A DNA stretch of 64,000 nucleotides from Crateriforma spongiae (GTDB lineage: Bacteria > Planctomycetota > Planctomycetia > Pirellulales > Pirellulaceae). Each line of letters begins with the position of its first letter. Position 1 is the first letter of the stretch. The notes under the pieces are model-generated. The model saw only the letters and a program-made list of their open reading frames with translations. It had not been told where the DNA came from and searched no databases. The translations under genes and the position numbers were made by a program. Positions 10,147 through 36,399 of this stretch are shown in pieces. The stretch is taken from positions 124,001 to 188,000 of the forward strand of contig NZ_JAAXMS010000001.1 of the NCBI RefSeq assembly GCF_012290005.1, in the 5' to 3' direction.

Positions 10147-10221
10147 CGTGATTACTCCGCATCAAATGAATTTTGAGAATGGGGGGCGGTTTGAATGGAT
10201 GTGGGCTTTGGTGAACGTGGC

Positions 10222-12411: not shown

Positions 12412-12638
12412 TGTTGACGGAAGCATCAGTGCGGCTGGAACGATAGGTGGGCCGTGGGGTGGGACCCTAATTGTATCCTCGCCCACTCGGCTTTGCGCGA
12501 TCGATGATCCGGTCCGCTACAATCGGGCGAAACTCAAATGTTGATGTGGATCGCGGTGACGGCAATGGTCAGAGAGTGAGCGTTACTGATCAGATTGTTG
12601 ATTGTTGGCGGCATCGAAACCAAACTGGGACTTTTCGA

Positions 12639-14150: not shown

Positions 14151-14356
14151 GTCTTTCGCTACCGCTAACGCGTACCACCCAGTCGCGTTTTCTTGGTTAA
14201 ACTAGTGGGCCTAGGCGACCGATCGTAAATTCAGTCCGGTGGAATCCATCGGGCGAAGCTCCCAACAGCGGACGTGCCAGGCTGAAATCCGCTGGCGTGA
14301 ACGATCGCGTCGTGGCAAACCCACCTTTCTTTCCTTCCCGTTGAAAGACCCCTGTG

Positions 14357-15685
14357 ATGACCAAAGATAACGCATCCAAATCCTCGGATCGGCGATCCTT
14401 TTTGAAGACGACCTCGGTCGCCGCAACCGGAGCGGCTTTGGCCGGCTCGGTGGCACGCACCGCACACGCGGCAGGTCTGGACGAAATCAAAGTCGTTTTG
14501 ATCGGTTGTGGCGGTCGCGGAAGCGGTGCCATCGTCAACCTGTTCAACACCGAAGGCAACGTCAAACTGGTTGCCGTCGCCGACGCTTTTCCGCAAAAGG
14601 CCGAAGGTCTGCTGAACTCGCTTCGCAAGCGTAAACAGTATGCCGAAAAGGTCGCCGTGACCCCGGAAAACATCTACACGGATCTGAACGGCTACAAGGC
14701 CGCAATGGATGTTGAATGCGATCTTGTCGTGATCGCGACACCGCCCGCCTTCAAACCGCAGCAATTCGAACACGCGGTCAAGAAGGGCCGGCACGTGTTC
14801 ATGGAAAAACCCGTCGCGTCCGATGCACCCGGCGTCCGTCGTGTTTTGGAATCCGTCAAGGAATCGAAGAAGAAAGATCTGTTGGTCGCGATCGGATTGC
14901 AACGACGTCACCAACCCAACTACCTGGAAACCGTTCGTCGCATCCACGATGGTGAAATCGGCGACGTGATTTCCCAGCAAGTTTATTGGAACGGCGGCGG
15001 GATCTGGTACCGCAACCGTACCGATGATCAAAACGAAATGGCGTTCCAGTGCAACAACTGGTACCACTTCAATTGGCTTTCGGGCGACCAGATTTGTGAA
15101 CAACACATTCACAACCTGGATATCGGTTGCTGGGTCAAGGGTGAATACCCGGTCGAATGCAACGGCATGGGTGGTCGTGGGCAACGAATGGATGGCGATC
15201 CCACCAAGTCACAAATCAACGATCACACGTTCTGCGAATTCACCTTCGCCGACGGCAGCAAGATGTTCAGCCAAGGTCGTCACCTGAAGGGTGCTTGGAC
15301 CCACGTCGGCGAACATGTGCAAGGTTCCAAGGGAACGGCCGATCCGAGCGGTTGGTTGGCTGGTGCGAACGAGTGGAAGTTCGATGGCCCGAATTTGAAC
15401 GGCCACCAACAAGAACAGCACGATTTGATCGCTGCGTTGATGCGAGGCGACATCTACAACGAAGGTGAATACGGCGCGCTGTCCACGTTCACTGCGATCT
15501 TGGGCCGCGAAGCCTGCTACAGCGGCAAGGTTTTGAAGTGGGACGAGTTGCTGGAAAATGGACGCAACTTGGCGCCCAACATCGACGATCTGACCCTGGA
15601 ATCGCAGGTGCCTGAAAGTGCACGTCCCGACGATGAAGGACGTTATCCGATTCCGGTCCCCGGCAGCTACAACCCATTTGCCTAA
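14357..15685 (+). CDS. Tat-exported Gfo/Idh/MocA family oxidoreductase
   Basis: 442 residues from the ATG at 14357; a GTG directly precedes it at 14354. Tat signal SDRRSFLKTTSVAATGAAL is followed by an Ala-rich region ending AHAAG. The NAD(P) fold begins VVLIGCGGRGSGA, and the EKP-type motif is MEKPVAS. Long C-terminal substrate domain with many aromatic residues (NGGGIWYR, NNWYHFNW). Monocistronic, closed by a strong terminator. Not a close copy of the oxidoreductase at 8773-10146. Substrate unknown; sugar or polyol dehydrogenase-like. Confidence 0.92.
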   Translation: MTKDNASKSSDRRSFLKTTSVAATGAALAGSVARTAHAAGLDEIKVVLIGCGGRGSGAIVNLFNTEGNVKLVAVADAFPQKAEGLLNSLRKRKQYAEKVAVTPENIYTDLNGYKAAMDVECDLVVIATPPAFKPQQFEHAVKKGRHVFMEKPVASDAPGVRRVLESVKESKKKDLLVAIGLQRRHQPNYLETVRRIHDGEIGDVISQQVYWNGGGIWYRNRTDDQNEMAFQCNNWYHFNWLSGDQICEQHIHNLDIGCWVKGEYPVECNGMGGRGQRMDGDPTKSQINDHTFCEFTFADGSKMFSQGRHLKGAWTHVGEHVQGSKGTADPSGWLAGANEWKFDGPNLNGHQQEQHDLIAALMRGDIYNEGEYGALSTFTAILGREACYSGKVLKWDELLENGRNLAPNIDDLTLESQVPESARPDDEGRYPIPVPGSYNPFA

Positions 15686-15859: not shown

Positions 15860-17116
15860 TCACTGCAGGCAATACAGAGCGTCGTTGCTTCGCACAAGTA
15901 TTTCGGATCCTGCCGGCACGGGACTGGCGTTGACGCGACTGTCATCCAAGGCATCGTTGTGTTGAAGCATCTGAAATTCCGGCTTCGCGGCGATTACGAA
16001 TGTCCCGCTGTCACGGGTCACGACATAGTATTGGTCTTCCGCCAACAGCGGTGATCCGTAGACGGTGCCGGGACGCGGTGACAGGCGTTCGCGATAGACG
16101 ATTTCGCCATCTTCGGCGTTCAAGCAAAACGCCAAACCGCTGCGTTCATTCAGGAAATAAAGATGCCCGTCGTGATAGACCGGTGATGGAACGTTTGCGC
16201 CCGCACGTGCTTCCCACAGCGGTTCGACATCCCCACGTCCGCCTGCTTTGACGGCGACGGCGGTGTTGCGACGACCGCCGATGGCGTACACGATTCCGTC
16301 ATGGCTGATGGGCGTTGGGCAGATATAGTCGTCAACAAAGGGGCACGTCCAAAGTGTTTTCCCGGTGGATGGATCGAACCCGCGCAAACGTCCCTTGTCG
16401 GCGAGTACCAATTCTTGGGTTCCCGTACCGACGTCGACCAGTAATGGGCTGCTCCATGACCTTTGGACATCATCGACACGCCAGGCTTCGGTTCCGTCGC
16501 TCTTGTTCAGCGCAACCATGCTGCCGCTTTCCACGCTGGCGTTGACGATGACCAAATCGTCAAACAACACAGGTGATGTTCCTGATCCCCAACCGTGAAC
16601 ACCGTCGCCGACACTGACTTGCCAACGTTTCTGACCGTCTTTCGAAACCGCTGCGACGCCGGAACATCCCAGAAAAACATAGATGTCCTGGCCATCGGTG
16701 ACTGGCGTCGATGATGCATAACCATGCAACGCTTGGAAGCCTTCGAACGGTTTGTCACCACCATCGGATGGAAAGTCAACGGTCCACACGTGATCGCCGG
16801 TGGATCGACGGTACGCCGCAAGATGTCGTGATAGATCCTGGAGGTCGCCTGGCGAGTCTTCGTCGATTCCGTATCCGTCGTAGTACGTCACGACGACCAA
16901 GTCGTCCAAAACGATGGGGCAAGAACCGCCCGGTCCTGGAAGGTCCGTTTTCCACCGAACCGAAGTGGCCGCATCCCATTGGACAGGCAAGGAACCCTGT
17001 GAAGAGGTTGCCGAACCATCGTCACCGCGGAACTGTTGCCAGTCGTCGGACCATGCCAACGCACCGTGAAACAATAGGATCCAAACGCCAAAGATACGTG
17101 GGAATGTTCTGGACAT
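15860..17116 (-). CDS. Secreted PQQ-like beta-propeller protein
   Basis: About 418 residues from the ATG at 17116, chosen because it gives a short classical signal peptide ending ALAWSDDW. An upstream in-frame start at 17188 would add 24 residues with no signal character. The opening DDWQQFRGDDGSA and repeated blade motifs (VALNKSDGTEAWRV, LRGFDPSTGKTLWT, LNAEDGEIVY) mark a pyrroloquinoline-like or BamB-like eight-bladed propeller. No dehydrogenase catalytic residues or heme motifs are visible, so it is probably a binding or scaffold protein. Planctomycetes carry many such paralogues. Confidence 0.85.
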   Translation of the reverse strand: MSRTFPRIFGVWILLFHGALAWSDDWQQFRGDDGSATSSQGSLPVQWDAATSVRWKTDLPGPGGSCPIVLDDLVVVTYYDGYGIDEDSPGDLQDLSRHLAAYRRSTGDHVWTVDFPSDGGDKPFEGFQALHGYASSTPVTDGQDIYVFLGCSGVAAVSKDGQKRWQVSVGDGVHGWGSGTSPVLFDDLVIVNASVESGSMVALNKSDGTEAWRVDDVQRSWSSPLLVDVGTGTQELVLADKGRLRGFDPSTGKTLWTCPFVDDYICPTPISHDGIVYAIGGRRNTAVAVKAGGRGDVEPLWEARAGANVPSPVYHDGHLYFLNERSGLAFCLNAEDGEIVYRERLSPRPGTVYGSPLLAEDQYYVVTRDSGTFVIAAKPEFQMLQHNDALDDSRVNASPVPAGSEILVRSNDALYCLQ

Positions 17117-17703
17117 GAGGGCTGCTGTGGAAGGAGGGCGTGAAGGGGAGGCGGAAGACAAATGACCCAAGGCAAACTCGTTTTGCAAAGCTTCCGCTGT
17201 CGTCTCAGTAGTGATTGATCATACCGAGACGCGACCGCACGTTGTGTATCGGAAATGCACCGTTTTGCAGTGCGTCGTATCGTCGCGGATCGAAGGTGCA
17301 GATTCATAAAACGCCGCGATTAGCGTGCTTTCAACGCACAGCTCACGACACGTGCGACTGTTCGTCTGTGGCACACCTTGCGACGATCCGCCCATAATCG
17401 CTCGAAAGATAAGACAGCGGAAAGGATCACCGCCGAGCGATTCGTGTCGAGTCCTGGAATGTCAGGATGTTCCTGGTCCCCGGCCGAATCGTGTTGCACC
17501 AACAGCGGAACTGGAACCGTGAAACCATGCATTCAGTTTTTTGAACACGTTGACAACGGTCGGACGTCGAAATCCGGTGGACGCGGGCTTGAAGTGAATT
17601 CGCCGACGCGCCGATCGCATGCCTTCGATGTTGCGCGGCAATGGTTGTGGGTTCATAGCAACGGGTTGCTTCGTCGTTCCTTCAGTGATTTCAGGGCGGA
17701 GAC
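17117..17703. other. Divergent intergenic region upstream of the electron-transfer operon
   Basis: About 590 bases between two divergent PQQ-like propeller genes. No credible coding frame; only short, low-quality frames. It must contain the promoter of the eight-gene operon that follows. I see no FNR-type box, clear inverted repeat or strong -10/-35 pair. Confidence 0.5.
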
Positions 17704-19128
17704 ATGAAAGCCTCCGCTGTGGATCGTGGGACTTTGGGCTTGGTGGCTTTGTGCGCTATTGTCGTTGCTGTTGGTTGGATGGGCGTCCGGCCAAGTCAGC
17801 AGGTCCGCATGCGATTGCCGGGACAAGACGGCGCACCCGAGACGGTCAGTCTAAAAAGCGATGTGCTCGCCGTTCCGGTTCCTGGGCAACCGGTTGCGGG
17901 TGCCGGTGTGGCGGGCGTGACCGATGGAACGTGGACGGGATTCCGCGGGCCGGATGGCGGCAACGTCGTCATTGAAACACCGACGCTGCGGACCGATTGG
18001 TCGTCCGATGGTCCGGACAAGCAATGGGAAATCACCTTGTGTGAAGGATACGCCGGTGCGGCGGTTTCCAACGGTCGCGTGTACGTGTTGGACTATGACG
18101 AGGCGAATCAATCCGATGTGCTGCGCTGCTTGTCGTTGGCGGACGGACAAGAGATCTGGCGGAACAGCTATCCGGTTCCGGTGACGCGAAACCATGGCAT
18201 CACACGAACCGTCCCCACGATCACCGGCCCGCTTGTCGTCACCCTGGGACCCCGTTGTCATTTGGCCGTATGGGATGCAACCACGGGCAAGAATCTTTGG
18301 CTGAAAAGCTTGGTGGCCGAGTACCAGGCCGTCGAACCTCGCTGGTACGTCGGTCAATGCCCTTTGGTGGATGAAGGAAAGCTGATTCTTGGCGTGGGCG
18401 GAACCGCATTGCTTGTCGCTTTGGATATCAATACCGGCGATGTGATCTGGGAATCAGCCAATCCACGTCAGTGGGAAATGACGCATTCCAGTGTTGTGCC
18501 AATGAATGTTGGTGGAACACGCATGTACGTCTACTGCGGCAGCGGCGGGATCGCGGGCGTGGACGCCGAAGCGGGAAAAATCTTATGGGACACGACATCC
18601 TGGCCGGTCCAATTCGCCCACGCCCCATCGCCCCTTGTGCTGCCGGAAAGTCGATTCTTGGTATCCAGTGGTTACGGATCCAAGGTCGGAGCAATCTTGT
18701 TCCAGGTATCCGATGCCGCCGATGCAGTTGACATCGTGAAGGAATTCACTCCCAAGGAATTCAATTCCGAACAGCAAACACCGATCGTGTACCAACAACA
18801 CATCTTTGGAGTTCGCAAACGAGGTGGCGGCGTGTTGGTCTGCATGGATTTGGACGGAAACGAAGTTTGGTCCAGCGGGCGGGATCGATTCGGGCACGGA
18901 CCTTATCTGATTGCGGACAACAAAATTTGGTTGTTGGATGATCATGGCACATTGACGGCGGTTCAAGCCAATACCGAATCCTACGAGCCCATTGCGCGGG
19001 CCGAGATCTTTCCCGATGGACATGACGCTTGGGGGCCGATGGCGATCGTGGATGGAAAATTGATTCTGCGTGAAATGACTCGGATGGCGTGTCTGGACCT
19101 TTTGTCGGAATCCGAACCTCAGGACTAA
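17704..19128 (+). CDS. Membrane-anchored PQQ-like beta-propeller protein
   Basis: 474 residues with an N-terminal transmembrane anchor (about 10-28, LGLVALCAIVVAVGWMGV) and a periplasmic propeller beginning GTWTGFRGPDGG. Blade motifs include LSLADGQEIWRN, VWDATTGKNLW, ALDINTGDVIWES, GVDAEAGKILWD and MDLDGNEVWSS. No heme or metal motif is apparent. First gene of an eight-gene plus-strand set to 28323, with the next start only 15 bases downstream. Probably part of the periplasmic face of the predicted electron-transfer assembly; function not known. Confidence 0.82.
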   Translation: MKASAVDRGTLGLVALCAIVVAVGWMGVRPSQQVRMRLPGQDGAPETVSLKSDVLAVPVPGQPVAGAGVAGVTDGTWTGFRGPDGGNVVIETPTLRTDWSSDGPDKQWEITLCEGYAGAAVSNGRVYVLDYDEANQSDVLRCLSLADGQEIWRNSYPVPVTRNHGITRTVPTITGPLVVTLGPRCHLAVWDATTGKNLWLKSLVAEYQAVEPRWYVGQCPLVDEGKLILGVGGTALLVALDINTGDVIWESANPRQWEMTHSSVVPMNVGGTRMYVYCGSGGIAGVDAEAGKILWDTTSWPVQFAHAPSPLVLPESRFLVSSGYGSKVGAILFQVSDAADAVDIVKEFTPKEFNSEQQTPIVYQQHIFGVRKRGGGVLVCMDLDGNEVWSSGRDRFGHGPYLIADNKIWLLDDHGTLTAVQANTESYEPIARAEIFPDGHDAWGPMAIVDGKLILREMTRMACLDLLSESEPQD

Positions 19129-19143
19129 CCACGGGACAAAGTG

Positions 19144-20208
19144 ATGAATCGAATGCATGCTATCCCGATCGTTGTCGCCACCATCGCGATCGTCGGTGCC
19201 GCAGGCTACTTGGTGGTTGATCGACGCGTTAATCCCGACGTTCCGGGTTCCGCGTTTCAGCTGGATTTGGATCCACATCTGCGTCCCAGCGCTGAAGCAT
19301 TCGAGTGGAAACAGGTTCGTAAGATTTCATTGGCGTTGCAGGATCCCATTGCGATCGAGGTCTCCAGTGCCGACTTTATTCTGGTTCTCGGGCGTCGGCC
19401 TGATCAACAAGGCGACGTGGTATGGATGGATCAGGCTGGCAACGTACACGGCGCAATGGAACTGTCGTTTGTTCCGCAATGCGCGACGATCGATTCCGCT
19501 GCATCCGGCGAAGTGCCATCGATTCTGGTGGCATCGGCCAACCAAGTGCATCGCGTCGATTTCGCATCACGGCAGGTAACACCGTGGGCTTCGATGTCGG
19601 CCGACGCCAATATCACCGCCATCGCGATGTCTGATACAGGGGTTTATCTGGCGGATGCGGGACAACGATTGGTTCACCACTTTGATCATTCAGCGGGGCT
19701 GATCAACCAATGGGATGGGTCTGATCGCGTTCCCGATGGTCGGCATTTCAACGTTCCCAGCAATCATTTCGAATTGCTATCCTCAGGCGACGGTTTGTTG
19801 TACGTCGTCAATCCGGGACTCCATCGCGTGGAGACTTATTCGTCGGACGGAAAGTTTGAACTGGCCTGGGGCGAAAGCGGTGTCGATGTCGAAAGCTTTT
19901 TCGGTTGTTGCAACCCCGTCCATTTATCCCGTCTGCCCGACGGTAGGTTTTTGACCAGCGAAAAAGGCATTCCACGCATCAAGGTCTATACCGCCGATGG
20001 GCAGTTCGATGGCTTGGTGGCCGCGTCGCAGGACCTTCAGGTGGATTCCAGCCGACTGGGCGATCCTCGCACCGACATGACGCCGGCCATTTTCGATGTC
20101 GCATCAAATTCCGCTGGCGAGATTTTGGTTCTCGATCCGCTGCAGCACTGTGTCCGTGTCTTCGCGCAGGAACGCGTGGCTGACCAAAGGGAACTTGCAG
20201 GCAACTGA
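19144..20208 (+). CDS. Membrane-anchored NHL/six-bladed beta-propeller with Cys-Cys motif
   Basis: 354 residues from the ATG at 19144; a GTG codon directly precedes it at 19141. N-terminal transmembrane helix (about 5-24) followed by NHL-like repeats such as NVPSNHFELLSSGDGLLYVV. Near the C-terminus stand FFGCCNPVHLSRLPDG and SEKGIPRIKVYTADGQFDG. This pairing of a Cys-Cys element with SEKG-PR-KVY looks like a conserved functional site and recalls NHL proteins found beside NapGH-like Fe-S genes in other bacteria (recalled, not checked). The next gene starts 1 base after the stop. Role unknown; possibly electron transfer or metal binding. Confidence 0.8.
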   Translation: MNRMHAIPIVVATIAIVGAAGYLVVDRRVNPDVPGSAFQLDLDPHLRPSAEAFEWKQVRKISLALQDPIAIEVSSADFILVLGRRPDQQGDVVWMDQAGNVHGAMELSFVPQCATIDSAASGEVPSILVASANQVHRVDFASRQVTPWASMSADANITAIAMSDTGVYLADAGQRLVHHFDHSAGLINQWDGSDRVPDGRHFNVPSNHFELLSSGDGLLYVVNPGLHRVETYSSDGKFELAWGESGVDVESFFGCCNPVHLSRLPDGRFLTSEKGIPRIKVYTADGQFDGLVAASQDLQVDSSRLGDPRTDMTPAIFDVASNSAGEILVLDPLQHCVRVFAQERVADQRELAGN

Positions 20209-20209
20209 G

Positions 20210-20470
20210 ATGATTCCCATGAACGAGCGCAAACTGCAAACGGCCAATCATCCGAACTTGCGAGTCATTGATCGCCGGGAATGGTTCCGGCAATGGATGC
20301 GTGGTGGTGCGACGTTGGTGATTGCACTGATCGCGTACTTCCTTGTGCAGCGAAGAATGTCGGGACGTTGTATCGATCAGGGAACCGGCTGTGCCCAGTG
20401 TCGCCTAAGCGTGACATGTCAGATTCGCCAACCGTCATGGTCGGATTCACGTCCAAGGAGGCAGCGATGA
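20210..20470 (+). CDS. Small Cys-rich single-pass membrane protein
   Basis: 86 residues from the ATG at 20210, or 83 from the ATG at 20219. Basic N-terminus, one transmembrane helix (ATLVIALIAYFLV), then a short tail with four Cys in CIDQGTGCAQCRLSVTC. It begins 1 base after the NHL gene and overlaps the ferredoxin gene by 4 bases (ATGA), so it is translationally coupled and very likely real. The Cys spacing (C-x6-C-x2-C-x5-C) could bind a cluster or metal at the membrane surface. Not a named family to me; probably an assembly or electron-transfer partner of the NapGH-like proteins. Confidence 0.75.
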   Translation: MIPMNERKLQTANHPNLRVIDRREWFRQWMRGGATLVIALIAYFLVQRRMSGRCIDQGTGCAQCRLSVTCQIRQPSWSDSRPRRQR

Positions 20471-21111
20471 TGAACGCGGACCATCGCGAATCACGGCGTC
20501 AATTCGTCGGTGATATGACTCGGGCCGTTGGCGTTTTGGCGGTTGGTGCCGTTGCCGGCGGAGTGGCCGGACGCTCGGCAATCGGACAAGAAATGCGTTG
20601 GCAGATCGACCCGGATCGTTGCGTGGGATGCAGCGAATGTGCAACCGAATGCGTTTTGGATGAATCCGCGGTCAAGTGTGTCCAATGCTTTGACATGTGT
20701 GGGTATTGCGACATCTGCACGGGTTACCTGGATCCCAACTACACCGCCGTCGACACGGCCGCGGAGAACCAGCTTTGTCCGACCGCGGCCATCGAACGTC
20801 GATTCGTTGAAGAAAAAGCCGGCCAGAAGTTCTACGAATACACCATCGACCCCGAAGCCTGCATTGGTTGTGGAAAGTGCGTGAAGGGATGCGCGTTGAT
20901 GAACGGTTCGCTGTACCTGCAGGTCATGCAGGACAAATGTGTGAACTGCAACGAATGTGCGATCAGTCGTGCCTGTCCCACCGAAGCATTCCTGCAAGTC
21001 CCCGCCGACCGGCCGTATCTGTTGAAACGCCAGGCACAAGAGTTGTTGACCAATAGGCCGACACCCACGGATCAATCGAAGGCCCTTCTGCAACAGGTGA
21101 CGCTGCGATGA
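20467..21111 (+). CDS. Tat-exported polyferredoxin (NapG-like)
   Basis: 214 residues from the ATG at 20467, preceded by a strong AAGGAGG at 20454-20460; ATG at 20470 is also possible. Tat signal SRRQFVGDM plus a Gly/Ala/Val-rich hydrophobic stretch to about residue 37. The mature part has ferredoxin-type Cys clusters: CVGCSECATEC, CVQCFDMCGYCDIC, CIGCGKCVKGC and CVNCNECAISRAC with following CP. This fits three to four [4Fe-4S] clusters on the periplasmic side, as in NapG. It overlaps the NapH-like gene by 4 bases. NapG takes electrons from NapH in nitrate-reductase systems, but no NapA is encoded here, so the acceptor is unknown. Confidence 0.88.
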   Translation: MMNADHRESRRQFVGDMTRAVGVLAVGAVAGGVAGRSAIGQEMRWQIDPDRCVGCSECATECVLDESAVKCVQCFDMCGYCDICTGYLDPNYTAVDTAAENQLCPTAAIERRFVEEKAGQKFYEYTIDPEACIGCGKCVKGCALMNGSLYLQVMQDKCVNCNECAISRACPTEAFLQVPADRPYLLKRQAQELLTNRPTPTDQSKALLQQVTLR

Positions 21112-22415
21112 TTGAAACGGTGTTGGTGGCGGGCATTGGTGAATCGTCGGCGACGTTGCAAGCATTCTTGTTGGGAAATCTGATTCCCACGCCTCAGTTT
21201 TCCGATCACGCCATTCCGGTATCGGAACAACCGGCGGCCAGTGGTTTCTGGTGGGAATGCTTGGACTTGAGTCTGCTTTTGGTCGCGCTAGCCCTGGCCA
21301 GCTATTTCGCCCTGGTTTCTCGTTCGCGTCGGTCGCTGTTTGGGTTGTCCGCGTTTTCGCTGGTCTGGTTTGGTTTCATTCGCCAGGGCTGCGTTTGTTC
21401 GGTGGGTTCAGTACAGAATGTCGCCTATGCGATGACCGACGCGTCTTATGCCGTTCCGCTGACAGTGATCGGGTTTTTCTGTTTGCCGATTCTGTTCGCA
21501 CTCTATTCCGGGCGTGTCTTTTGCTCGGGCGTTTGCCCCTTGGGGGCGATCCAAGAAATGGTGGCTGTTCGAAACGTCCAGATTCCCAAATGGATCGACC
21601 ATGGTTTAGGGGTGGTGCCGTGGATCTATTTGGGAGCCGCGGTCATCTTTGCAGCCAGCGGAGGCATGTTTTTGATCTGTCGCTACGATCCGTTCGTCGG
21701 TTTTTTTCGCTTCAGCGGAAACGCTGGCATGATTCTGTTCGGAACGTTCTTGCTGCTTGTCGGCGTGTTTGTCGGCAGACCCTATTGTCGCTTTCTTTGT
21801 CCCTATGGTGCTTTGTTGTCCGCGTGTTCCGGCGTCGCGCGATCGAACGTGCGGATTCCACCGGGCGACTGTATTCGTTGCGGTCTATGTCGCGATGCTT
21901 GTCCCTATGGTGCGATCGAGCCACCTAGCGAAACGGCCACCGATCAAGAAACAGTTTCGGGGAAACGACGTCTAATATTTGTCTTCGCTGCCACCCCGGT
22001 GTTGATCATCGGCTTGGCAATCATGGGCTATCGCCTTGGACCGGCTCTTTCGGGTTTGGAATTTGATGTGCAACTGGCAAGTCAGTTGCAGCATGAAGCG
22101 GCTGATCCCCAGTGGCCAACCAACGACGCCAGTGACGCGTTTCGCGCAGCGCAGGGCGACGCCGATCAGCTGTTGTTGGACGCGGTCGAAACACAGCATC
22201 GGTATCGCTACGCCGGTGTGGGGCTTGGTGTCTGGATTGCACTGGTCGTCGTTGGCAAATCGGTTTCTTTGTGTCGCCGTCGACAGCAAGACGAGTTTGT
22301 TGCTGATCGATCGGCATGCGTTTCCTGTGGGCGTTGCTTTGAATTCTGTCCCGTCGAACATGCCAAACAAGGCGTCGTGGGATTGCCAACGATTCAGGGG
22401 GAACATCGTCCATGA
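21108..22415 (+). CDS. NapH/MauN-like membrane Fe-S protein
   Basis: 435 residues. At least five transmembrane helices carry the paired family motifs CSGVCPLG and CRFLCPYG, plus an early GCVCSVGS. These are followed by a ferredoxin-like CIRCGLCRDACPYGAIE. After a further helix and a periplasmic segment of about 80 residues, another transmembrane helix leads to a last Cys set, CVSCGRCFEFCP. The extra C-terminal helix and cluster motif are unusual for NapH. It probably oxidises quinol or passes electrons across the membrane to the exported ferredoxin. Start and stop overlap both neighbours by 4 bases. Confidence 0.9.
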   Translation: MIETVLVAGIGESSATLQAFLLGNLIPTPQFSDHAIPVSEQPAASGFWWECLDLSLLLVALALASYFALVSRSRRSLFGLSAFSLVWFGFIRQGCVCSVGSVQNVAYAMTDASYAVPLTVIGFFCLPILFALYSGRVFCSGVCPLGAIQEMVAVRNVQIPKWIDHGLGVVPWIYLGAAVIFAASGGMFLICRYDPFVGFFRFSGNAGMILFGTFLLLVGVFVGRPYCRFLCPYGALLSACSGVARSNVRIPPGDCIRCGLCRDACPYGAIEPPSETATDQETVSGKRRLIFVFAATPVLIIGLAIMGYRLGPALSGLEFDVQLASQLQHEAADPQWPTNDASDAFRAAQGDADQLLLDAVETQHRYRYAGVGLGVWIALVVVGKSVSLCRRRQQDEFVADRSACVSCGRCFEFCPVEHAKQGVVGLPTIQGEHRP

Positions 22416-24199
22416 ATCTGTTTCAGGTGTTCTATCGAAACCGCAACGGATTGTCGGTGGTTGCCACGTGGTTTCTGTTGTTCGTCGGAGTCGCGTTGTT
22501 CTTCGATTTCGGCGGCCGAATCATCGACCCGTATAGCGATTCAAAGTTGCAGCAATTGAAACTTGAATTGCGTGAACAACCGAATGACGATTCGCTGAAG
22601 CACCAGATCCGCGAACGTGATCAACATGTTCGACAACAGTATTTTCGTCGCAAGGCGTTCACTTGGTGGGGCGCACGGTTGTGTCTGGTCGGTGCGGTGA
22701 TTGTGTTCCTGGCATCGCGGCGTTTGGGACCAATGTCCGATCCGTCGCGAATCCAAATACAGGGTGGTGATCCGGAACCAAGTGACTTTCATCGCAATTC
22801 AACCTGGGGCATGTCTGCTGTCACCGTTCTGGTTGCGGCATGTCTGATGGTGGCGGTGTTGTTGCAAAGGAATGGCCAACAAGACCTGTCAGCGGCACTC
22901 GCTGCGTCACGTGCGGTCGAAGATTCTGCTATCGAACGCGATCAAGCTGACGGTGGGAAAGCTGCCAGCGCCCTGCCTGAGATCCAGAATGTAGTGACGC
23001 CGGTATCGGCAGAAGAATTTGCGAGCAACTGGTATCGATTTCGTGGGCCACGGGGTGATGGAACCAGTGCAATGTCGTCTTTGGATTTTCGCTGGGATGC
23101 AGATACCGGCGAAGGCATCCTGTGGAAGGTGCCGGTCGAATGTCCCGGCAATGGATCTCCGGTGGTGTGGGGTGACCGTGTGTTTTTGGCGTCGGCGGAC
23201 GAAACGCGACGTTGCGTTCAGAGCTTTTCGGTCTCCGATGGGACGCTGCTTTGGACGAAAGAAATAGAGCATCCGGATCCCACGCGTCCCCCCGTCGAAG
23301 TCAGTGAAGACACGGGCTACGCCGCATCGACGATGACCACCAATGGCCAATTGGCGTTCGCTATTTTTGCGGATGGATTGTTGGTGGCTCTGGATCGTGA
23401 TGGCAATGAAGTGTGGTTAAGGGATTTGGGCCCACTGGAAAACATTTATGGGCACGCTTCTTCCTTGGTGCTGTCGGGTGACCGATTGATCGTGCAGTTG
23501 GACCAAGGCAGCAAGTCCGACAACGCATCACGAATCGACGTGTTGAACGTTGCCACAGGCGACGCGGTTTATTCCATTGCACGAGAGGTGCCCGCGTCGT
23601 GGTCGACCCCGATCGTCGCCAATCGAGACGGGCAGGATGTGTTGATCGCTTGTGCGGATCCTTGGGTCATCGCCTACAACCTAAGCGACGGATCCGAATG
23701 CTGGCGCTGTGCAGCACTACGCCAGGATGTCGGTCCGTCTCCTGTTTTTTCGGACCAGCACGTGGTTGTCGCGAACGAATCGCCCGGAGCGACGGCAATT
23801 CGTTGGGGAGGCACCGGGGACGTGACCGAAACGCATGTTGATTGGACAGCGGAATACAGCATTCCGGACACAACCAGCCCGCTGATCGTCGGCGACCTTG
23901 TCTTGATGCTGACGTCCTATGGAACTCTTGCGGCATACGATGCCGGCGCCGGTGGTGAACCACTGTGGGAGATCGATTACGAGGACAACTTCCAGGCTTC
24001 CCCCACGCGTTTTGGTGACGACGTCCTACTGGTCGGCGAAACAGGATTGTGCTGGACGGTTCGTCCCAGCGAAGACGGGTGTGAAACGATCACCGAATCG
24101 AACTTGGGCGAAGACTGTGTGACCAGCCCCGCCGTCGCCAACGGCAAGATTTTCCTGCGAGGTCGTGAACACCTTTATTGTTTAGGACCCCAGAAATGA
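22412..24199 (+). CDS. Membrane PQQ-like beta-propeller with two-helix N-terminal module
   Basis: 595 residues. Transmembrane helices near 16-33, 85-102 and 132-151 flank charged linkers, including a coiled-coil-like segment (KLQQLKLELREQPNDDSLKH). The rest is a propeller opening NWYRFRGPRGDGTSA, with blade motifs VALDRDGNEVWLRD and AYNLSDGSECWRC. It resembles PQQ-like propellers elsewhere in the window but is fused to extra membrane helices. Four-base ATGA overlaps on both sides tie it to NapH-like and HydCB-like genes. Its place inside an electron-transfer operon suggests a structural or sensing subunit; no cofactor motif is visible. Confidence 0.82.
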   Translation: MNLFQVFYRNRNGLSVVATWFLLFVGVALFFDFGGRIIDPYSDSKLQQLKLELREQPNDDSLKHQIRERDQHVRQQYFRRKAFTWWGARLCLVGAVIVFLASRRLGPMSDPSRIQIQGGDPEPSDFHRNSTWGMSAVTVLVAACLMVAVLLQRNGQQDLSAALAASRAVEDSAIERDQADGGKAASALPEIQNVVTPVSAEEFASNWYRFRGPRGDGTSAMSSLDFRWDADTGEGILWKVPVECPGNGSPVVWGDRVFLASADETRRCVQSFSVSDGTLLWTKEIEHPDPTRPPVEVSEDTGYAASTMTTNGQLAFAIFADGLLVALDRDGNEVWLRDLGPLENIYGHASSLVLSGDRLIVQLDQGSKSDNASRIDVLNVATGDAVYSIAREVPASWSTPIVANRDGQDVLIACADPWVIAYNLSDGSECWRCAALRQDVGPSPVFSDQHVVVANESPGATAIRWGGTGDVTETHVDWTAEYSIPDTTSPLIVGDLVLMLTSYGTLAAYDAGAGGEPLWEIDYEDNFQASPTRFGDDVLLVGETGLCWTVRPSEDGCETITESNLGEDCVTSPAVANGKIFLRGREHLYCLGPQK

Positions 24200-26607
24200 G
24201 TGCGGTTGTCAAAGAAATGATTGGGGTGGATTCGCCAAAGACGGACGTGGATTTGGCATTCGTCGATGATGCCGTGCGTCGCATCGGACGTACCCCGGAT
24301 GCCGTCGTTCCGTTGCTGCAGTCCATTCAAAAGCATTATCGCTATCTGCCATCGTCTGCGCTTCAGCGCGTCTGTGAATTAACCGACATCACCCCCGCTT
24401 CGATCGCAGGAGTGTCCACGTTCTATACTCAGTTTCGGCATCGGCCGATGGGACGCCATCACGTTCAGGTTTGCTGCGGAACGGCATGCCACGTGAAGGG
24501 GGCTGACCTATTGATCGAAACGCTTCGAACTGATCTGGGGATGGATCCGACACAGGATACCGATCCAAACCAACAGTTTACGATTGAACCGGTGGCATGT
24601 TTGGGATGTTGTACCCTTGCACCGGTGGTTCAAGTCGACGACCAAGTCTTTGGGCGGCTTGCACCTGCCGAAGTGGCCAAGAAGGTTCGATCAGTGGATG
24701 CGAAAGCACCTGGATCAAAGACCTCAATTGCGATGCCGCATCGGATGCCCGAAGGTGCCGGCGAAATTCGCGTCGGCTTGGGGTCATGCTGTGTCGCGCA
24801 GGGAAGTCGACGCGTGTTCGACAAGGCCGCCGCGATTGCGTCCGAGTTGGGCGTGGATGCCAAAGTCAAAAGCGTCGGATGCGTGGGAATGTGTCACCAG
24901 ACGCCGCTGTTGGAAGTCTGCAAACGCGACGGCACGACCGAGACGTTCGCACGGGTGGTCGAAGCGGACGTCGATCGAATTTTGCGTTCAAGCTTTCCGC
25001 GGAAAAGCTTGCTGTCAAGATTTGCATCGGCCGCACACCACTTGTTGGATGTTGTTTACGAAGGAGAACCGCCGTCCGACGACGCAACGACACCGCTGGA
25101 AACCGAGTGTGGTCCGGTTTGTGATTTTCTGGGACCCCAGAAACGAATTGCCACTGATAACAGTGGTGCGATCGATCCTCTGGACCTTGCAGAGTACAAA
25201 CGGTTCGGTGGTTTTGAATCACTGCGACGCTGTGCACTCGAGCGATTGCCGCAAGAGATCATTGACCAGGTACGTGTGTCTGGACTGCGAGGGCGCGGAG
25301 GCGGCGGCTTTCCGTCGGCGGCGAAGTGGCAAATCGTTTCGGACACGCAATCCGATCAAAAGTATGTCATTTGTAACGGTGATGAAGGTGATCCCGGCGC
25401 GTTCATGGATCGTATGCTGCTGGAATCCTTTCCCTATCGCGTGATCGAAGGTTTGGCGATCGCCGCGCTGGCTGTCGGGGCTCGTCAAGGATATTTCTAT
25501 ATCCGCGCGGAATACCCACTTGCGGTGACGCGTATTCGCGAAGCGATTGGGCGGTGCAAGGAAGCAAACATCTTGGGGCCAAACATTCTGGGAAGCGACC
25601 ATTCGCTGGACTTTGAAATCAAAGAAGGTGCCGGCGCGTTCATTTGCGGCGAAGAAACCGCGCTGATTCATTCGATCGAAGGTGGTCGTGGAACGCCGCG
25701 TTTGCGTCCGCCCTACCCTGCCCAGTCGGGACTTTGGAAAAAGCCCACGTTGATCAATAACGTCGAAACCCTGGCGATGGTGCCATGGATTCTGCGTCAC
25801 GGCGGCGAACAATACGCTGGCGTGGGAACACCGGCCAGCAAAGGAACCAAGGTGTTCGCGTTGACCGGAAAGGTACAGCGCGGAGGGCTGATCGAAGTCC
25901 CGATGGGAATCACGATTCGCGAAATCGTGAACTCGATCGGCGGCGGCGTGCCCGAAGGCCGGACATTCAAGGCGGTGCAGGTCGGCGGACCGTCGGGGGG
26001 ATGTATTCCGGCGGAATTGGCCGACACGCCAGTGGACTATGAGGCATTGCGAGGTGTCGGTGCGATCATGGGAAGCGGTGGTTTGGTTGTTTTGGACGAC
26101 ACCGACTGCATGGTGGATATCGCGCGGTATTTCCTGCGTTTTACCCAGGACCAGTCATGCGGCAAATGTACGTATTGTCGTGTGGGGACCAAGCGTTTGC
26201 TTGAGATTTTGGATCGCATGTGCGAGGGGAAGGGAAAGAAGGCTGATCTGGCCACCCTGGAATCGCTTTGCGAAAGCGTCGCCCAAGGCAGCTTATGTGG
26301 ACTTGGTAAAACAGCCCCCAACCCCGTTCTTTCGACGCTGAAGTATTTCCGAGATGAATACGAAGCCCACCTTCGTGGTGTGTGTCCCTCGGGGCGATGC
26401 AAAAACTTGATCTCATACCAAGTTCAAGACAATTGCATCGGATGTACGCTTTGCAGCCAACAGTGCCCGGTGGATGCAATACCAATGACGCCCTATCGCA
26501 TTCATTCGATTGATGACAGTCGGTGCACACGATGTGACGCATGTCGAACGGTCTGTCCCGAAGATGCCATTCGAATCGTGTCGGGTCCACAAGGTGAATC
26601 GCGATGA
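24196..26607 (+). CDS. Fused HydC-HydB-type flavin/Fe-S subunit (NuoE-NuoF-ferredoxin)
   Basis: 803 residues from the ATG at 24196, which overlaps the previous stop. Domain order: NuoE/HydC-like [2Fe-2S] thioredoxin fold (1-165; Cys93, 98, 135, 139); a second [2Fe-2S] thioredoxin-like domain (190-265; Cys198/199, 229, 233); NuoF core with FMN/NADH motifs GRGGGGFPSAAKW and CNGDEGDPGAF; SLBB; N3-type [4Fe-4S] (Cys655, 658, 661, 701); a CPSGRCK pair (Cys730, 735) as in the zinc motif of HydB-like proteins; two C-terminal [4Fe-4S] clusters (Cys747-757 and 777-787). This is the composition of the HydB plus HydC pair of electron-bifurcating (Bfu-type) complexes in one chain. It probably oxidises or reduces NAD(H). 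Whether it bifurcates is inference. Confidence 0.9.
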   Translation: MSAVVKEMIGVDSPKTDVDLAFVDDAVRRIGRTPDAVVPLLQSIQKHYRYLPSSALQRVCELTDITPASIAGVSTFYTQFRHRPMGRHHVQVCCGTACHVKGADLLIETLRTDLGMDPTQDTDPNQQFTIEPVACLGCCTLAPVVQVDDQVFGRLAPAEVAKKVRSVDAKAPGSKTSIAMPHRMPEGAGEIRVGLGSCCVAQGSRRVFDKAAAIASELGVDAKVKSVGCVGMCHQTPLLEVCKRDGTTETFARVVEADVDRILRSSFPRKSLLSRFASAAHHLLDVVYEGEPPSDDATTPLETECGPVCDFLGPQKRIATDNSGAIDPLDLAEYKRFGGFESLRRCALERLPQEIIDQVRVSGLRGRGGGGFPSAAKWQIVSDTQSDQKYVICNGDEGDPGAFMDRMLLESFPYRVIEGLAIAALAVGARQGYFYIRAEYPLAVTRIREAIGRCKEANILGPNILGSDHSLDFEIKEGAGAFICGEETALIHSIEGGRGTPRLRPPYPAQSGLWKKPTLINNVETLAMVPWILRHGGEQYAGVGTPASKGTKVFALTGKVQRGGLIEVPMGITIREIVNSIGGGVPEGRTFKAVQVGGPSGGCIPAELADTPVDYEALRGVGAIMGSGGLVVLDDTDCMVDIARYFLRFTQDQSCGKCTYCRVGTKRLLEILDRMCEGKGKKADLATLESLCESVAQGSLCGLGKTAPNPVLSTLKYFRDEYEAHLRGVCPSGRCKNLISYQVQDNCIGCTLCSQQCPVDAIPMTPYRIHSIDDSRCTRCDACRTVCPEDAIRIVSGPQGESR

Positions 26608-26706
26608 GGAATACCGGCATTCGATTGATCGACACTTGGATCGTGAATTCATTGGGACGTCGATCCTGGAAACATGCGGGGCAAACAGCGATACAGGAGA
26701 TTAGGG

Positions 26707-28323
26707 ATGCCAACAATACGCATTGATCAGACGGATGTTGTGGTCGATCCCGGCACGACTGTCCTGGAAGCTGCCCGGTCGGTCGGGATTGAAATACCGA
26801 CGCTATGCTATTTGAAAGGCTATGACCCATCAGCCTCGTGCCAAGTTTGCCTGGTGCGCGATGTTGCCACCGGACGCATGGTTCCTAGTTGTGCAACCAC
26901 CGCGACCGATGGTCTGCAAATCGAAAGTGAATCGGATGAAGTCCACGCGGCGCGCCGGACGGCTCTGGAACTGTTGCTTAGCGAGCACGTGGGGGATTGT
27001 CTAGCGCCGTGCCACTTCGCCTGTCCCGCGCACATGGACATTCCATTGATGTTGCGTCAGATCGGTGATCAGGAATGGTCTGCAGCGATCGAAACGATCA
27101 AAAACGACATCGCATTTCCGGCCATTTTGGGACGCATCTGCACCAAGCCTTGTGAAAAGGGATGTCGACGAAACGCCGCAGATGACCCAGTCGCGGTGTG
27201 TCAATTGAAGCAAGTTGTTGCCGACAAAGACTTGGCGACCGGTGACGGTTACCAACCCGAACCAAGGATCGCATCTGGAAAACGTGTTGCCATCATTGGC
27301 GCTGGTTTGACCGGTCTGTCGGCAGCCTACTACCTGACTCGGCTTGGGCATCGATGCCAGGTTTTGGAGAAAGCGTCGCAGCCAGGTGGCCGGCTGCACG
27401 CATTGGGTGCCGATGCTTTGCCGCCAGCGGTTCTGGCATCAGAGATTCAGCGAGTTCGTCAGGTTGGGTTCGAATTGACCTGCGATCGAACGGTCCAGTC
27501 GGCGGATGAATTTACGACACTGTTGGACGACTTTGATGCGGTCCTGGTGGCTTGGGGCGAAGGCCAAATGCAGGCGGCACAGCGGTTGGGATTGAAGACG
27601 AACCGAAAAGGCATCCAGGTGGATCGTGCGACCTACGCCACGGATATCGATCAGGTATTTGCCGCGGGAAACGCCGTTCGTGGAAACGCACTCTTTGTAC
27701 GCAGCACGGCGGATGGGAAAGAAGCGGCTGTTTGCATCGATCAGTACCTGACCCTGGGAAAAACGACCGGAATCTCTCGGTCTTTTTCATCTCGGATGGG
27801 AAAGGTCGCACCCCAAGAACTGGGTCAGTTTGTACAAGACGCCGGACACGCACCCTTGGCCACGGAGCAATTGGTGGTGGACGAATCGACCGGTGGTGTG
27901 GATTCCGTCACAGCCGCGAAGCAGTCCGGCCGTTGTCTGGCTTGTGGGTGCGTGGCCCATGGAAACTGTCGATTGGAACATTGGGCATCAAAATACAATG
28001 CCGACCCGGGACGATTTGGATCTCGTCAAGCGACCTACGAAGTGGTGGGTCGCGGTGGCGACGTTTTGTTCGAACCCGGTAAGTGCATCAAGTGCGAGTT
28101 GTGCATTCAGATCGCCTCAAAGTCCAAATCAGATCTTGGGCTGTCATTCGTCGGCCGTGGTTTTGATGTTCGCGTCGGCGTTCCGTTTGACCGTTCCTGG
28201 GAAGACGCCGTTCGCTCGGTTGCCCAGGAATGCGTCGATGCCTGTCCGACAGGGGCCATCTATTTTCGCTGGCGTGATGTCGACGTGGTGGACTTGGGCG
28301 AATCAAAGACGAAATCCCAATGA
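26707..28323 (+). CDS. StnA/GltD-like FAD/Fe-S protein lacking the NAD(P) domain
   Basis: 538 residues from the ATG at 26707 (GGAGATTAGGG upstream). NuoG/HydA-like [2Fe-2S] ferredoxin (Cys34, 45, 48, 62), a His-Cys3 site (His94, Cys98, 102, 106), GltD-type N-terminal Cys set (145, 149, 153, 165), then an FAD fold (VAIIGAGLTGLSAAYYL, 194-210). FAD motif PGGRLHALG and the terminal AAGNAVRG are only about 95 residues apart. The middle NAD(P)-binding Rossmann domain of GltD/NfnL proteins (GGGN-type motif) is absent. C-terminal Cys sets (410, 413, 415, 421; 460, 463, 466; 509, 513) follow. Partner of the HydCB-like protein 99 bases upstream. Confidence 0.88.
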   Translation: MPTIRIDQTDVVVDPGTTVLEAARSVGIEIPTLCYLKGYDPSASCQVCLVRDVATGRMVPSCATTATDGLQIESESDEVHAARRTALELLLSEHVGDCLAPCHFACPAHMDIPLMLRQIGDQEWSAAIETIKNDIAFPAILGRICTKPCEKGCRRNAADDPVAVCQLKQVVADKDLATGDGYQPEPRIASGKRVAIIGAGLTGLSAAYYLTRLGHRCQVLEKASQPGGRLHALGADALPPAVLASEIQRVRQVGFELTCDRTVQSADEFTTLLDDFDAVLVAWGEGQMQAAQRLGLKTNRKGIQVDRATYATDIDQVFAAGNAVRGNALFVRSTADGKEAAVCIDQYLTLGKTTGISRSFSSRMGKVAPQELGQFVQDAGHAPLATEQLVVDESTGGVDSVTAAKQSGRCLACGCVAHGNCRLEHWASKYNADPGRFGSRQATYEVVGRGGDVLFEPGKCIKCELCIQIASKSKSDLGLSFVGRGFDVRVGVPFDRSWEDAVRSVAQECVDACPTGAIYFRWRDVDVVDLGESKTKSQ

Positions 28324-30587: not shown

Positions 30588-30862
30588 GTGTTCGTTGCTC
30601 TTCGTCTGGAAACGATCGGCGTGTTGATCACGACGACATTGGAGGACGATCTGAGTTTGGCCGCCGCCGAGTGACGGAACAACGACTTCTTACGCAATCT
30701 TCATGGTTTCAGGGATGCTGGCGTCAGGAGTCGATATTCCGCCGCATTCCGAGTGGTAACGGTCGCTTCGGGTATGGCCGATGCGATGGATCGCCGACGC
30801 GATACAATTAACAGCACGTTTCAGTGATTCGCCAGGAAATTCGGACGACAAGGGTGACTTTG

Positions 30863-32530
30863 ATGGCAGCAAGCACGGCCGAAACGGCGTTTCCAAAGCT
30901 GAACGAGAATGAGATGGCGATCGTGTCCGAAGTCGGCGATCTTCGTGAGGTTGCCGATGGTACTGTGCTTTTCCGCGAAGGTGATCGTGAGTTTTCTTTC
31001 TTCGTTGTTCGCGAAGGAACCGTCCGCATCACTGAGGCGTCGTCGGGAAAACCAAACGAAATTGCGGTTCATGGCCCCGGGGAGTTTACCGGCGACGTAT
31101 CAATGCTGACCAATCGGCCTTCGGTGGTAACGGCCGTGGCGGTCGGGAATTGCCAGTTGATCGAAGTGCCGTATTGTCAGGTCCGCCAGATGATTGCGGA
31201 TCTTCCGGAATTGAGCGACCGTTTATTGGACGCCTTTCAGGTCCGTCGCCGAATGTTGGAGGAGTCTGGGTTTCTGGGAATCCGAGTCGTCGGCGCGGCC
31301 AATTCTGGTGAAACGTTACGCTTTCGCGAGTTCTTTTACAAAAACAAAGTGCCTTACACTTTTATCGATGTTGCCAGTCCCCAAGGGCAATCTGCGATCA
31401 AGGATTGGGACATCAAAGACGAACAAACACCCGTCATCGCATGCAGCCAGAATGTCATCCCGCGACCTTCGCTTGCAAAGGTCGCCGAGTGTTTGGGGAT
31501 CGCCAGAGATGTCCGCAGTCAGCCTTACGATGTGGTCATCGTCGGGGCCGGGCCGGCCGGTTTGGCGGCAGCGGTTTACGGTGCCTCCGAAGGTTTGGAA
31601 ACCTTGTTGGTCGATAGTGTCGGACCCGGCGGCCAAGCGGGGCAAAGTTCGCGCATCGAGAATTACATGGGGTTTCCGGCTGGTTTGCCGGGAACGGAAT
31701 TGGCCAATCTTGGATTTCTCCAGGCCATGAAATTCAATGCTGATTTCTTGGCTCCCGTTTCGGTCACCTCGGTCACTCCGACATCCGACGGCATGCATGA
31801 GGTGCAATTTTGTACGGGACAATCGGTCAGGACCAAAACGATCCTGATCGCCACCGGCGTTTCTTACCGACGGTTGCCCGTCGATGGTGCCGATCGTTTC
31901 GAAGGATCGGGGCTTTACCATTCCGCAACCACCGTCGAATCGCGGTCATGTCGGGATTCGATGGCGGTGGTGGTGGGAGGCGGAAATTCCGCTGGTCAGG
32001 CAGCGATGTATCTGTCGGGGCATGCCAGCGAAGTTCGATTGCTGATTCGCGGAGACAACCTACGCAAGAGCATGTCTGACTACCTTGCGCGTCGAATCGA
32101 ATCCAATCCGAACATTCACGTCATGTTGAATACGGAAATCGATCAGTTGGATGGTGAAGATTGCGTCCGGCAAGTTGTCGTTCGTAACAACCAAGATCAA
32201 TCATCCCAAACGCTTGGTTGCCAGGCCGTTTTTGTGTTCGTCGGTGCCAAGCCGCACACCGATTGGCTGGGGGATACGGTGGCACTGGATCGTCGTGGTT
32301 TCATTTTGACGGGGCCTGCTTTAAGACAGGCGGACGCGTGGTCGGCGTCGCGTGAACCCTGCGAACTGGAAACCAGCCGACCAGGAATCTTTGCCGCCGG
32401 TGATGTCCGCAGCGGAACGACAAAGCGTTGTGCGTTTGCCGCGGGTGACGGCGCACTGGGAATCACCTGTGTTCACCAATACCTTCAAAACCATGTCGAA
32501 CACTCGGCAACTTCGGATCACCCGAACTGA
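30863..32530 (+). CDS. Cyclic-nucleotide-binding / glutaredoxin-like / thioredoxin reductase-like fusion
   Basis: 555 residues from the ATG at 30863 (AAGGGTG upstream; a GTG at 30824 would add 13 residues). Domains: cNMP-binding fold (about 10-120, VLFREGDREFSFFVVREGTVRI), glutaredoxin-like fold (about 135-210) and a thioredoxin-reductase-like flavoprotein (about 215-540) with VVIVGAGPAGLAAAVYG, the second dinucleotide motif VVVGGGNSAGQAA and GIFAAGDVRSG. The CxxC of true thioredoxin reductase is replaced by SATT, and the Grx-like domain also lacks CxxC. It probably transfers hydride to something other than a standard disulfide. Confidence 0.9.
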   Translation: MAASTAETAFPKLNENEMAIVSEVGDLREVADGTVLFREGDREFSFFVVREGTVRITEASSGKPNEIAVHGPGEFTGDVSMLTNRPSVVTAVAVGNCQLIEVPYCQVRQMIADLPELSDRLLDAFQVRRRMLEESGFLGIRVVGAANSGETLRFREFFYKNKVPYTFIDVASPQGQSAIKDWDIKDEQTPVIACSQNVIPRPSLAKVAECLGIARDVRSQPYDVVIVGAGPAGLAAAVYGASEGLETLLVDSVGPGGQAGQSSRIENYMGFPAGLPGTELANLGFLQAMKFNADFLAPVSVTSVTPTSDGMHEVQFCTGQSVRTKTILIATGVSYRRLPVDGADRFEGSGLYHSATTVESRSCRDSMAVVVGGGNSAGQAAMYLSGHASEVRLLIRGDNLRKSMSDYLARRIESNPNIHVMLNTEIDQLDGEDCVRQVVVRNNQDQSSQTLGCQAVFVFVGAKPHTDWLGDTVALDRRGFILTGPALRQADAWSASREPCELETSRPGIFAAGDVRSGTTKRCAFAAGDGALGITCVHQYLQNHVEHSATSDHPN

Positions 32531-32927
32531 TCACGACTGTTCGGATTTCATCACCGGGCAGTGCTGAGGGATTTCTGAAACGCGTGCGCGAAGATACGGA
32601 CTCCGGTGTCAAGCGTTGTTGGTTCCACCGACGCAAGCCGCTGCGGTATTCGTTCGCATAGCGACCCATGCGGCGGGTGGGGGAAACGCTGTCCAAAGGT
32701 GGCGACTGCGACGATTTGCGTCAGCCACCGCGTGGCTGATTTCGGTGTGAAAGCCGCTATGGTGCAAGTTGGTCGATCGGCCCACGGCACTCGCCGGTAT
32801 AGGGCACTGCTCTGACCGCCGCCGCATTTTAACCGTCTTGGCGGAACGATCTTCCTTTCGGTCATTGATGGACTGAATGTGCGATATATCGTGATGTCGC
32901 GAGGTGTTTGTTTCGTGGAGTGTTCTG
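32531..32927. other. Intergenic region between TrxR-like fusion and TauE/SafE genes
   Basis: 397 bases. A short hairpin, CAGCCAC (32722-32728) with GTGGCTG (32732-32738), may terminate the upstream gene, but the T-tract is poor. Nothing else recognised; the promoter of the sulfur gene pair is presumably here. Confidence 0.4.
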
Positions 32928-33764: not shown

Positions 33765-33779
33765 ACAGGAGTGTCCAAG

Positions 33780-35204: not shown

Positions 35205-35254
35205 TCGTCAGGGCTTACCCACCGACAGAACAAACCTGACAACTTCGATTGACG

Positions 35255-36325: not shown

Positions 36326-36399
36326 TCGGTCCAAAACAGCGTCTGTCGGCATGTTCAATCCGGTCCACGGGGAACCGGATACAATGAACGCGGCTTCGT

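Follow-up and report, generated by a model that had tools for sequence, protein, structure and literature searches.

What does an operon do that joins a Bfu-type flavin enzyme to a chain of membrane and periplasmic iron-sulphur and propeller proteins, and do its two halves belong to one system? This question was raised by a 64,000-nucleotide stretch of Crateriforma spongiae DNA (contig NZ_JAAXMS010000001.1, positions 124,001 to 188,000; hereafter the window), in which a first-pass annotation had described an eight-gene electron-transfer operon. The number, order and strand of the genes were as described: A to H are eight open reading frames (ORFs), all on the plus strand, at 17704-28323 of the window. 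The starts had been said to overlap or nearly touch, and indeed ATGA overlaps were found at four junctions (C/D, D/E, E/F, and F/G) and 12 bases separate A from B. The starts of D, G, and H were revised to 20467, 24196, and 26707, respectively; given the last of these, which has AGGAG upstream, the G/H gap is 99 bases. Domains were assigned with Pfam and NCBIfam, which gave none for B at E <= 0.001 and no family match for C. The genes are as follows.

A, 17704..19128, plus strand: PQQ_2-type beta-propeller with an N-terminal anchor (PF13360, 86.5 bits), predicted to be periplasmic
B, 19141..20208, plus strand: NHL-type six-bladed propeller with an N-terminal transmembrane (TM) helix and a GCCNP + EK/R site (profile match and model)
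C, 20210..20470, plus strand: 86-aa TM protein with a Tat-like RRxW start and CxxCx5C (conserved design, without family match)
D, 20467..21111, plus strand: Tat-type ferredoxin with 16 invariant Cys and room for four [4Fe-4S] (domain search and alignment)
E, 21108..22415, plus strand: polytopic Fe-S protein of the NapH/NosR-like kind, with one more cluster motif at its C-terminus (domain search and alignment)
F, 22412..24199, plus strand: N-terminal TM segments and a PQQ_2-type propeller (domain search)
G, 24196..26607, plus strand: HydC(BfuC)-HydB(BfuB) fusion with an FMN/NADH module, B2 ligands, and a C-terminal 2x[4Fe-4S] part (domains and structure-chain matches)
H, 26707..28323, plus strand: StnC/BfuA-like Fe-S arm with an FAD-type domain and without an NAD(P)H domain (domains and alignment)

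Our analysis indicated that A to H are a real, conserved system for which no prior description was found. We propose tentatively, at a probability of about 0.45, that the eight proteins form one inner-membrane complex, a membrane-anchored bifurcating enzyme of the Bfu type whose electrons would most likely flow outward.

The evidence starts with G, in which 2Fe-2S_thioredx, Complex1_51K, NADH_4Fe-4S, and Fer4 domains were found. Its best matches among solved structures were StnB-type and HydB chains, and it is laid out as a HydC-like part (residues 24-163), a part matching the StnB N-terminal part from residue 188, and Fer4 at 742-791. The Bfu features of N-terminal thioredoxin-like [2Fe-2S] domains and a C-terminal 2x[4Fe-4S] ferredoxin domain were both present. 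In the available excerpts of Schut et al. (PMC9304861), bifurcation is tied to the B2 cluster, the ligands of which lie around the B1 motif (in the A. mobile enzyme, C438, C476 with Thr as its alternative, H525, C531, and C536) and are not present in non-bifurcating NuoF. The corresponding residues of G are Cys, Cys, His, Cys, Cys, spaced 0, 38, 87, 92, and 97, with one residue fewer ahead of the last two ligands. When 79 G sequences were compared, two truncated rows left 77 covering all five columns; four of the ligands were kept in 77/77, and the remaining one, the second in order, was Cys or Thr in 73 of the 77. Against the NuoF model TIGR01959, G scored 456.5 bits, under the cut-off of 558.65, and no Nuo subunits were found in its neighbourhood. 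Judged by its sequence, G is a member of the Bfu family (BfuBC core). G-like genes also occur outside the operon at three loci (L171, L172, and L055), where separate HydC/HydB-like genes adjoin a gene with a weak match to H; these are probably ordinary HydABC-type sets.

H consists of Fer2_4, Fer4_20, an FAD domain, and Fer4_Nqo3. It had been annotated as a StnA-like flavoprotein, of which the Stn relationship stood: H aligned to StnC-type chains as far as about residue 290, and then again past the nucleotide domain, the alignment spanning the 2Fe-2S, Fer4_20, FAD, and second Fe-S parts. The name did not stand, since the GltD-type subunit is called StnC, not StnA, in the structure paper (PMC10482914, available excerpts), and H is StnC/BfuA-like; furthermore, the loss of the nucleotide domain had been missed. 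According to the same excerpts, StnC has two Rossmann folds, which bind FAD and NADPH. The NAD(P)H domain is missing in 62 of 63 H sequences, as measured by the distance from the FAD-domain GG to the next conserved Cys, which is 131-206 residues in these 62. The sole exception (L159; genome G413, 9405-15362) has 338 residues there, with a GGGNTAMD motif. This divergent copy may be a half-way form, because its NAD(P) domain is kept, its HydC and HydB are split, and it has no F. At each of the main Fe-S positions of H, Cys is conserved in 51-55 of 55 sequences, and GxGxxG of the FAD domain is kept in all 18 family sequences. Because the NADP domain is absent, H lies outside the Stn/Nfn-Bfu group (type 1), and the loss of this domain points to the evolutionary re-plugging of a bifurcating core.

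The membrane and periplasmic half is likewise highly conserved at its cysteines. Sixteen Cys of D are found in 85/85 sequences, and two extra Cys of the D in the window vary (71/85 and 20/85). In E, C95, C97, C139, C143, C191, C227, C231, C258, C261, and C265 are kept in 87/87 sequences, C255 in 85/87, and the C-terminal CxxCxxCxxxC in 84/84. These proteins score far under the cut-offs of their nearest named families: 20.3 bits for D against NapG (NF007012, 269 bits), and 53.4 and 42.1 bits for E against NapH (TIGR02163, 213 bits, and NF007013, 234 bits, respectively). Similarly, A, which has 46-93% identity among relatives, and F gave 28.7 and 23.5 bits, respectively, far under the PQQ-dehydrogenase cut-off TIGR03075 (480 bits). 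The B profile matched NHL domains of solved structures; a fold search with the B model (mean pLDDT 82.6) returned TRIM/Thin/Brat NHL propellers as the nearest and otherwise only general NHL and other propellers. Both Cys of CCNP and K275 are present in 79/79 B sequences, E274 in 78/79, and R279 in 77/79. The first-pass annotation had stated that no terminal catalytic subunit is present. No such known enzyme is indeed encoded in the operon, but the statement may be too strong, given the invariant GCCNP...EK...R site of B, which may itself be a terminal catalytic site. The tiny Cys-rich TM protein C, also proposed there, is a real gene: by eye, a C-like ORF (RR, TM segment, and CxxCx5C) lies between B and D in 20/20 relatives, and CxxCx5C occurs in 50/50 C sequences that were found by, or used for, the C profile, with the first Cys of C unaligned.

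We asked whether the two halves occur together within the family. Of 149 family genomes, 23, including that of C. spongiae, have a full-length match to E with at least 47% identity, and a clear gap separates these from the next match (E 8e-126 against 6e-16). A separate search with H (E <= 1e-60) likewise gave 23 of the 149, and the two genome sets were identical (p about 1e-27, not corrected for kinship); none of the 149 carried one half only. The presence of the operon is patchy inside genera, as in genus g41, where 3 of the listed genomes have it. The order A-B-D-E-F-G-H was observed in 14 of the 20 family stretches fetched; as for the others, three are truncated where a contig ends (L038, L040, and L048), one has only the TM part of F (L046), and two have A-F alone (L039 and L052). 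In the genomes of these last two, G075 and G054, G/H lie elsewhere (about 90 kb off in G075 and on a different contig in G054). Since these two genomes hold both halves apart, the halves belong together even without linkage; the listed contamination of G054 is 8%. The conserved order and the identical E and H genome sets show that the grouping of A to H is beyond chance, and the link between a Bfu-like half and a NapGH-like/propeller half, as first annotated, was thus borne out as one conserved unit.

The operon was also found beyond the family. E (E <= 1e-40) was present in 36 of 392 genomes of a Planctomycetota sample, and a scan of named genomes with D yielded 52 loci; of these, L106 matched weakly and contains no gene of the operon. 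According to the record titles, these loci include Rhodopirellula rubra, R. sallentina, Aporhodopirellula aestuarii, and Stieleria sedimenti, and deletion of the operon is feasible because its carriers include these cultured Pirellulaceae. Records titled KSB1, Nealsonbacteria, and Armatimonadetes were also among them. In the group reached via the Armatimonadetes-titled record, 24/121 genomes matched at E <= 1e-30, as did 16/82 in the group reached via the KSB1-titled record; by their titles, these groups look like other phyla, which would make three with Planctomycetota. Among stretches that extend no less than 4.5 kb upstream of E and 7 kb downstream of it, and with C ignored, the exact order A-B-D-E-F-G-H was found in 16/21 elsewhere in the phylum, 9/13 in the Armatimonadetes-titled group, and 9/11 in the KSB1-titled group. 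Hence the failure of the genes to co-occur in relatives, which had been named in advance as fatal to the annotation, was not observed, the order being kept in several families and two further groups. A tree of G is arranged mostly by source, with some Planctomycetota among the Armatimonadetes-titled sequences and one KSB1-group sequence among Planctomycetota; we read this as an old operon with some transfer or mis-binning. Two records titled Nealsonbacteria and KSB1 (L089 and L091) carry the operon, and the Nealsonbacteria-titled one may be a mis-binned Planctomycetota sequence.

How might these proteins work as a membrane-anchored bifurcating complex? G would be the bifurcating core, exchanging electrons with NADH/NAD+ at FMN and with ferredoxin at its C-terminal Fe-S domain. 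H would be the third-substrate arm, which with the loss of the NAD(P)H domain would not serve NADP and would exchange electrons with E. E would carry electrons over the membrane via clusters on the cytoplasmic side, where C139/C143/C227/C231 and both ferredoxin motifs are predicted to lie, and perhaps via an outer-face cluster of C95/C97/C191, predicted near that face. D and C would then accept electrons in the periplasm on a propeller platform of A, B, and F, at which the acceptor would dock, the GCCNP site of B being the best candidate for a contact or cofactor site. We favour the outward direction for want of a periplasmic dehydrogenase; NADH and reduced ferredoxin would be merged into electrons near -400 mV, the potential given for such merging in the excerpts of PMC9304861. 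A supply of reduced ferredoxin is plausible, because Rnf homologues adjoin a PFOR-like protein in the genome of C. spongiae: homologues of RnfC, D, G, E, and A are flanked by an FNR-like protein on one side and a PFOR-like protein of 1416 residues on the other (L208, contig C11, 1201-10968, minus strand). The RnfG match falls short of its cut-off, and no RnfB was seen. Also in favour of the proposal, this genome gave neither a second NuoF-like protein at E <= 1e-40 nor a match to the complex I 49-kDa subunit.

Several observations weigh against this proposal. All evidence for a complex comes from sequences, and the direction of flow is a supposition. The flavin-binding Asp of H is replaced (Asp in only 5 of 54 aligned sequences), which makes FAD binding doubtful; it may be weak or nil. 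The E model is poor (mean pLDDT 59.5), so its predicted topology is a reading of charges and helices. Finally, the propeller of F is missing in L046, which has the TM part only, F was not found in L158 and L159, and G/H are not adjacent to A-F in the same 2 of 20 family stretches (L039 and L052).

The same complex could also run inward, a low-potential periplasmic donor delivering electrons via D/C/E and H to G, which would bifurcate them to NAD+ and ferredoxin. In favour of this, known Bfu enzymes run both ways (PMC9304861 and PMC10482914, available excerpts). Against it, no dehydrogenase, hydrogenase, or formate-type subunit is encoded in the operon or constant in its flanks, and the scores of A and F given above are far from those of PQQ dehydrogenases. 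PQQ dehydrogenases would, moreover, be too oxidising as donors for inward flow. We consider this direction possible but unlikely.

Alternatively, electrons might end at the membrane, E reducing the quinone pool and the periplasmic parts being structural or regulatory, in an NADH/ferredoxin:quinone oxidoreductase. In favour of this, E is related to NapH/NosR-type proteins, and no match to the complex I 49-kDa subunit was found in 5 of 7 genomes tested, including that of C. spongiae (97.8% complete). However, G302 carries both the operon and 49-kDa matches, and two NqrB/RnfD homologues in the C. spongiae genome already serve NADH. The 16 invariant Cys of D would also be hard to explain, and we regard a quinone reductase as rather improbable.

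The flanking genes were examined for a partner. In the family stretches, neighbours were grouped by similarity, and no constant enzyme partner was found among the 15 inspected. Outside the family, 472 flank ORFs of 77 loci were grouped by single linkage, some stretches being too short for flanks; the groups were recurrent but not constant. A known periplasmic enzyme partner encoded elsewhere, which had been the other finding held to count against the first-pass annotation, was thus not detected as a constant neighbour. An ABC transporter after H was considered as a partner and set aside, being confined to three genus g41 stretches (L036-L038) and not general. The recurrent groups were FtsX-type permeases (17 loci; the assignment is a match just under the cut-off, 25.2 of 25.5 bits), ABC ATPases (15, a loose group), GT4 (14), SHC-like cyclases (9), B12-type radical SAM proteins (6), DUF116-polyprenyl synthase fusions (6), a ferredoxin-like protein (6), and another radical SAM protein (4).

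These neighbours raise the alternative that the relay feeds an outer-face reduction in the maturation of an exported isoprenoid or glycolipid, for which SHC-like cyclase, DUF116-polyprenyl synthase fusion, radical SAM enzymes, GT4, and an FtsX-type ABC exporter would form the pathway. Outside the family such genes recur next to the operon, and two of them follow it across genomes. In the Armatimonadetes-titled group, 14 of the 121 genomes have the B12-type radical SAM gene. Of these 14, 13 belong to the 24 operon-positive genomes, the gene lying on the contig of the operon in 7 and on another contig in 6 (p about 3e-10, not corrected for kinship). Of the 340 Planctomycetota genomes sampled outside the class, 56 gave a match to the DUF116 gene, among them 17 of the 31 operon-positive ones, with 5.1 expected; 7 of the 56 matches are the polyprenyl half only, and without them 15 were observed against 4.5 expected. 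The DUF116 counts were made by hand from listings, likewise without kinship correction. On the other hand, neighbours of all these kinds are absent from the locus in the window and from the 20 family stretches, among the neighbours inspected. The DUF116-polyprenyl synthase was rejected as an obligatory partner because nearly all sampled Planctomycetia carry the gene without the operon. Such a role in lipid maturation is doubtful. In the C. spongiae genome, a DUF116-polyprenyl synthase fusion adjoins an SHC-like gene on a contig other than that of the operon (L210, contig C5, 6631-11148, minus strand).

A bolder version of the outward reading is speculative, and we hold it improbable: the operon would represent an ancient and so far undescribed class of periplasm-facing, membrane-bound bifurcating enzymes, in which a transmembrane Fe-S wire leading to a platform of three propellers took the place of the deleted Stn-type NADP domain, with a new redox cofactor or acceptor at the GCCNP site, and which originally powered an exported isoprenoid/radical-SAM lipid pathway. 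That A-F and G/H are two unrelated units, neighbours by accident, is very unlikely; their separation in G054 and G075 speaks for it, whereas identical distributions in 149 genomes and an order conserved in distant genomes speak against it.

The proposed membrane-anchored complex was compared with known systems. With StnABC of Sporomusa ovata (Nfn-Bfu, type 1) it shares the BfuB/BfuC core, the same ligands, and the alignment of H with StnC-type chains; it differs in the fusion of HydC to HydB, in the added membrane and periplasmic module, and in H (538 aa), where neither the NADPH domain nor the FdhF-like C-terminal domain of StnC (1172 aa) is present. In NiFe-, Nuo-, and Mbh-Bfu (types 2 and 3), a Bfu core likewise feeds extra subunits, and two of these systems are membrane-bound (PMC9304861, available excerpts), whereas the extra subunits here are NapGH-like Fe-S proteins and periplasmic propellers, and no Nuo, Mbh, or hydrogenase parts are present. 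Like NapGH, NosGH, and MauMN, the operon has adjacent genes for a Tat ferredoxin with a four-cluster pattern and a polytopic Fe-S protein; unlike in these, E has a further C-terminal cluster and an N-terminal CxC, a Bfu core is attached, and NapA, NosZ, and MauA are absent. The Rnf complex likewise links NADH/ferredoxin to membrane carriers, but the operon contains no RnfD/E/A-type membrane subunits, and the genome has a separate Rnf-like set. The combination had been taken to be undescribed; consistent with this, no description of the gene set was found in the open-licence PMC literature, and the words "periplasm" and "Tat" do not occur in the available text of PMC9304861. If the outward reading is true, a bifurcating enzyme pushes ferredoxin-strength electrons across the inner membrane, which the available excerpts of that paper do not state for any Bfu enzyme.

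Two further features of the window were noted. Another PQQ_2-type propeller, divergently oriented, lies upstream of A at 15860-17188 on the minus strand, and an extra propeller upstream of A was also seen in several relatives. Downstream, at 30824-37548 on the plus strand, a TrxR-like protein with a cNMP domain, TauE, a metallo-beta-lactamase + rhodanese protein, a di-haem peroxidase (MauG type), and a Pyr_redox_2 protein are encoded in a row, which presumably resembles a sulphide or persulphide cluster.

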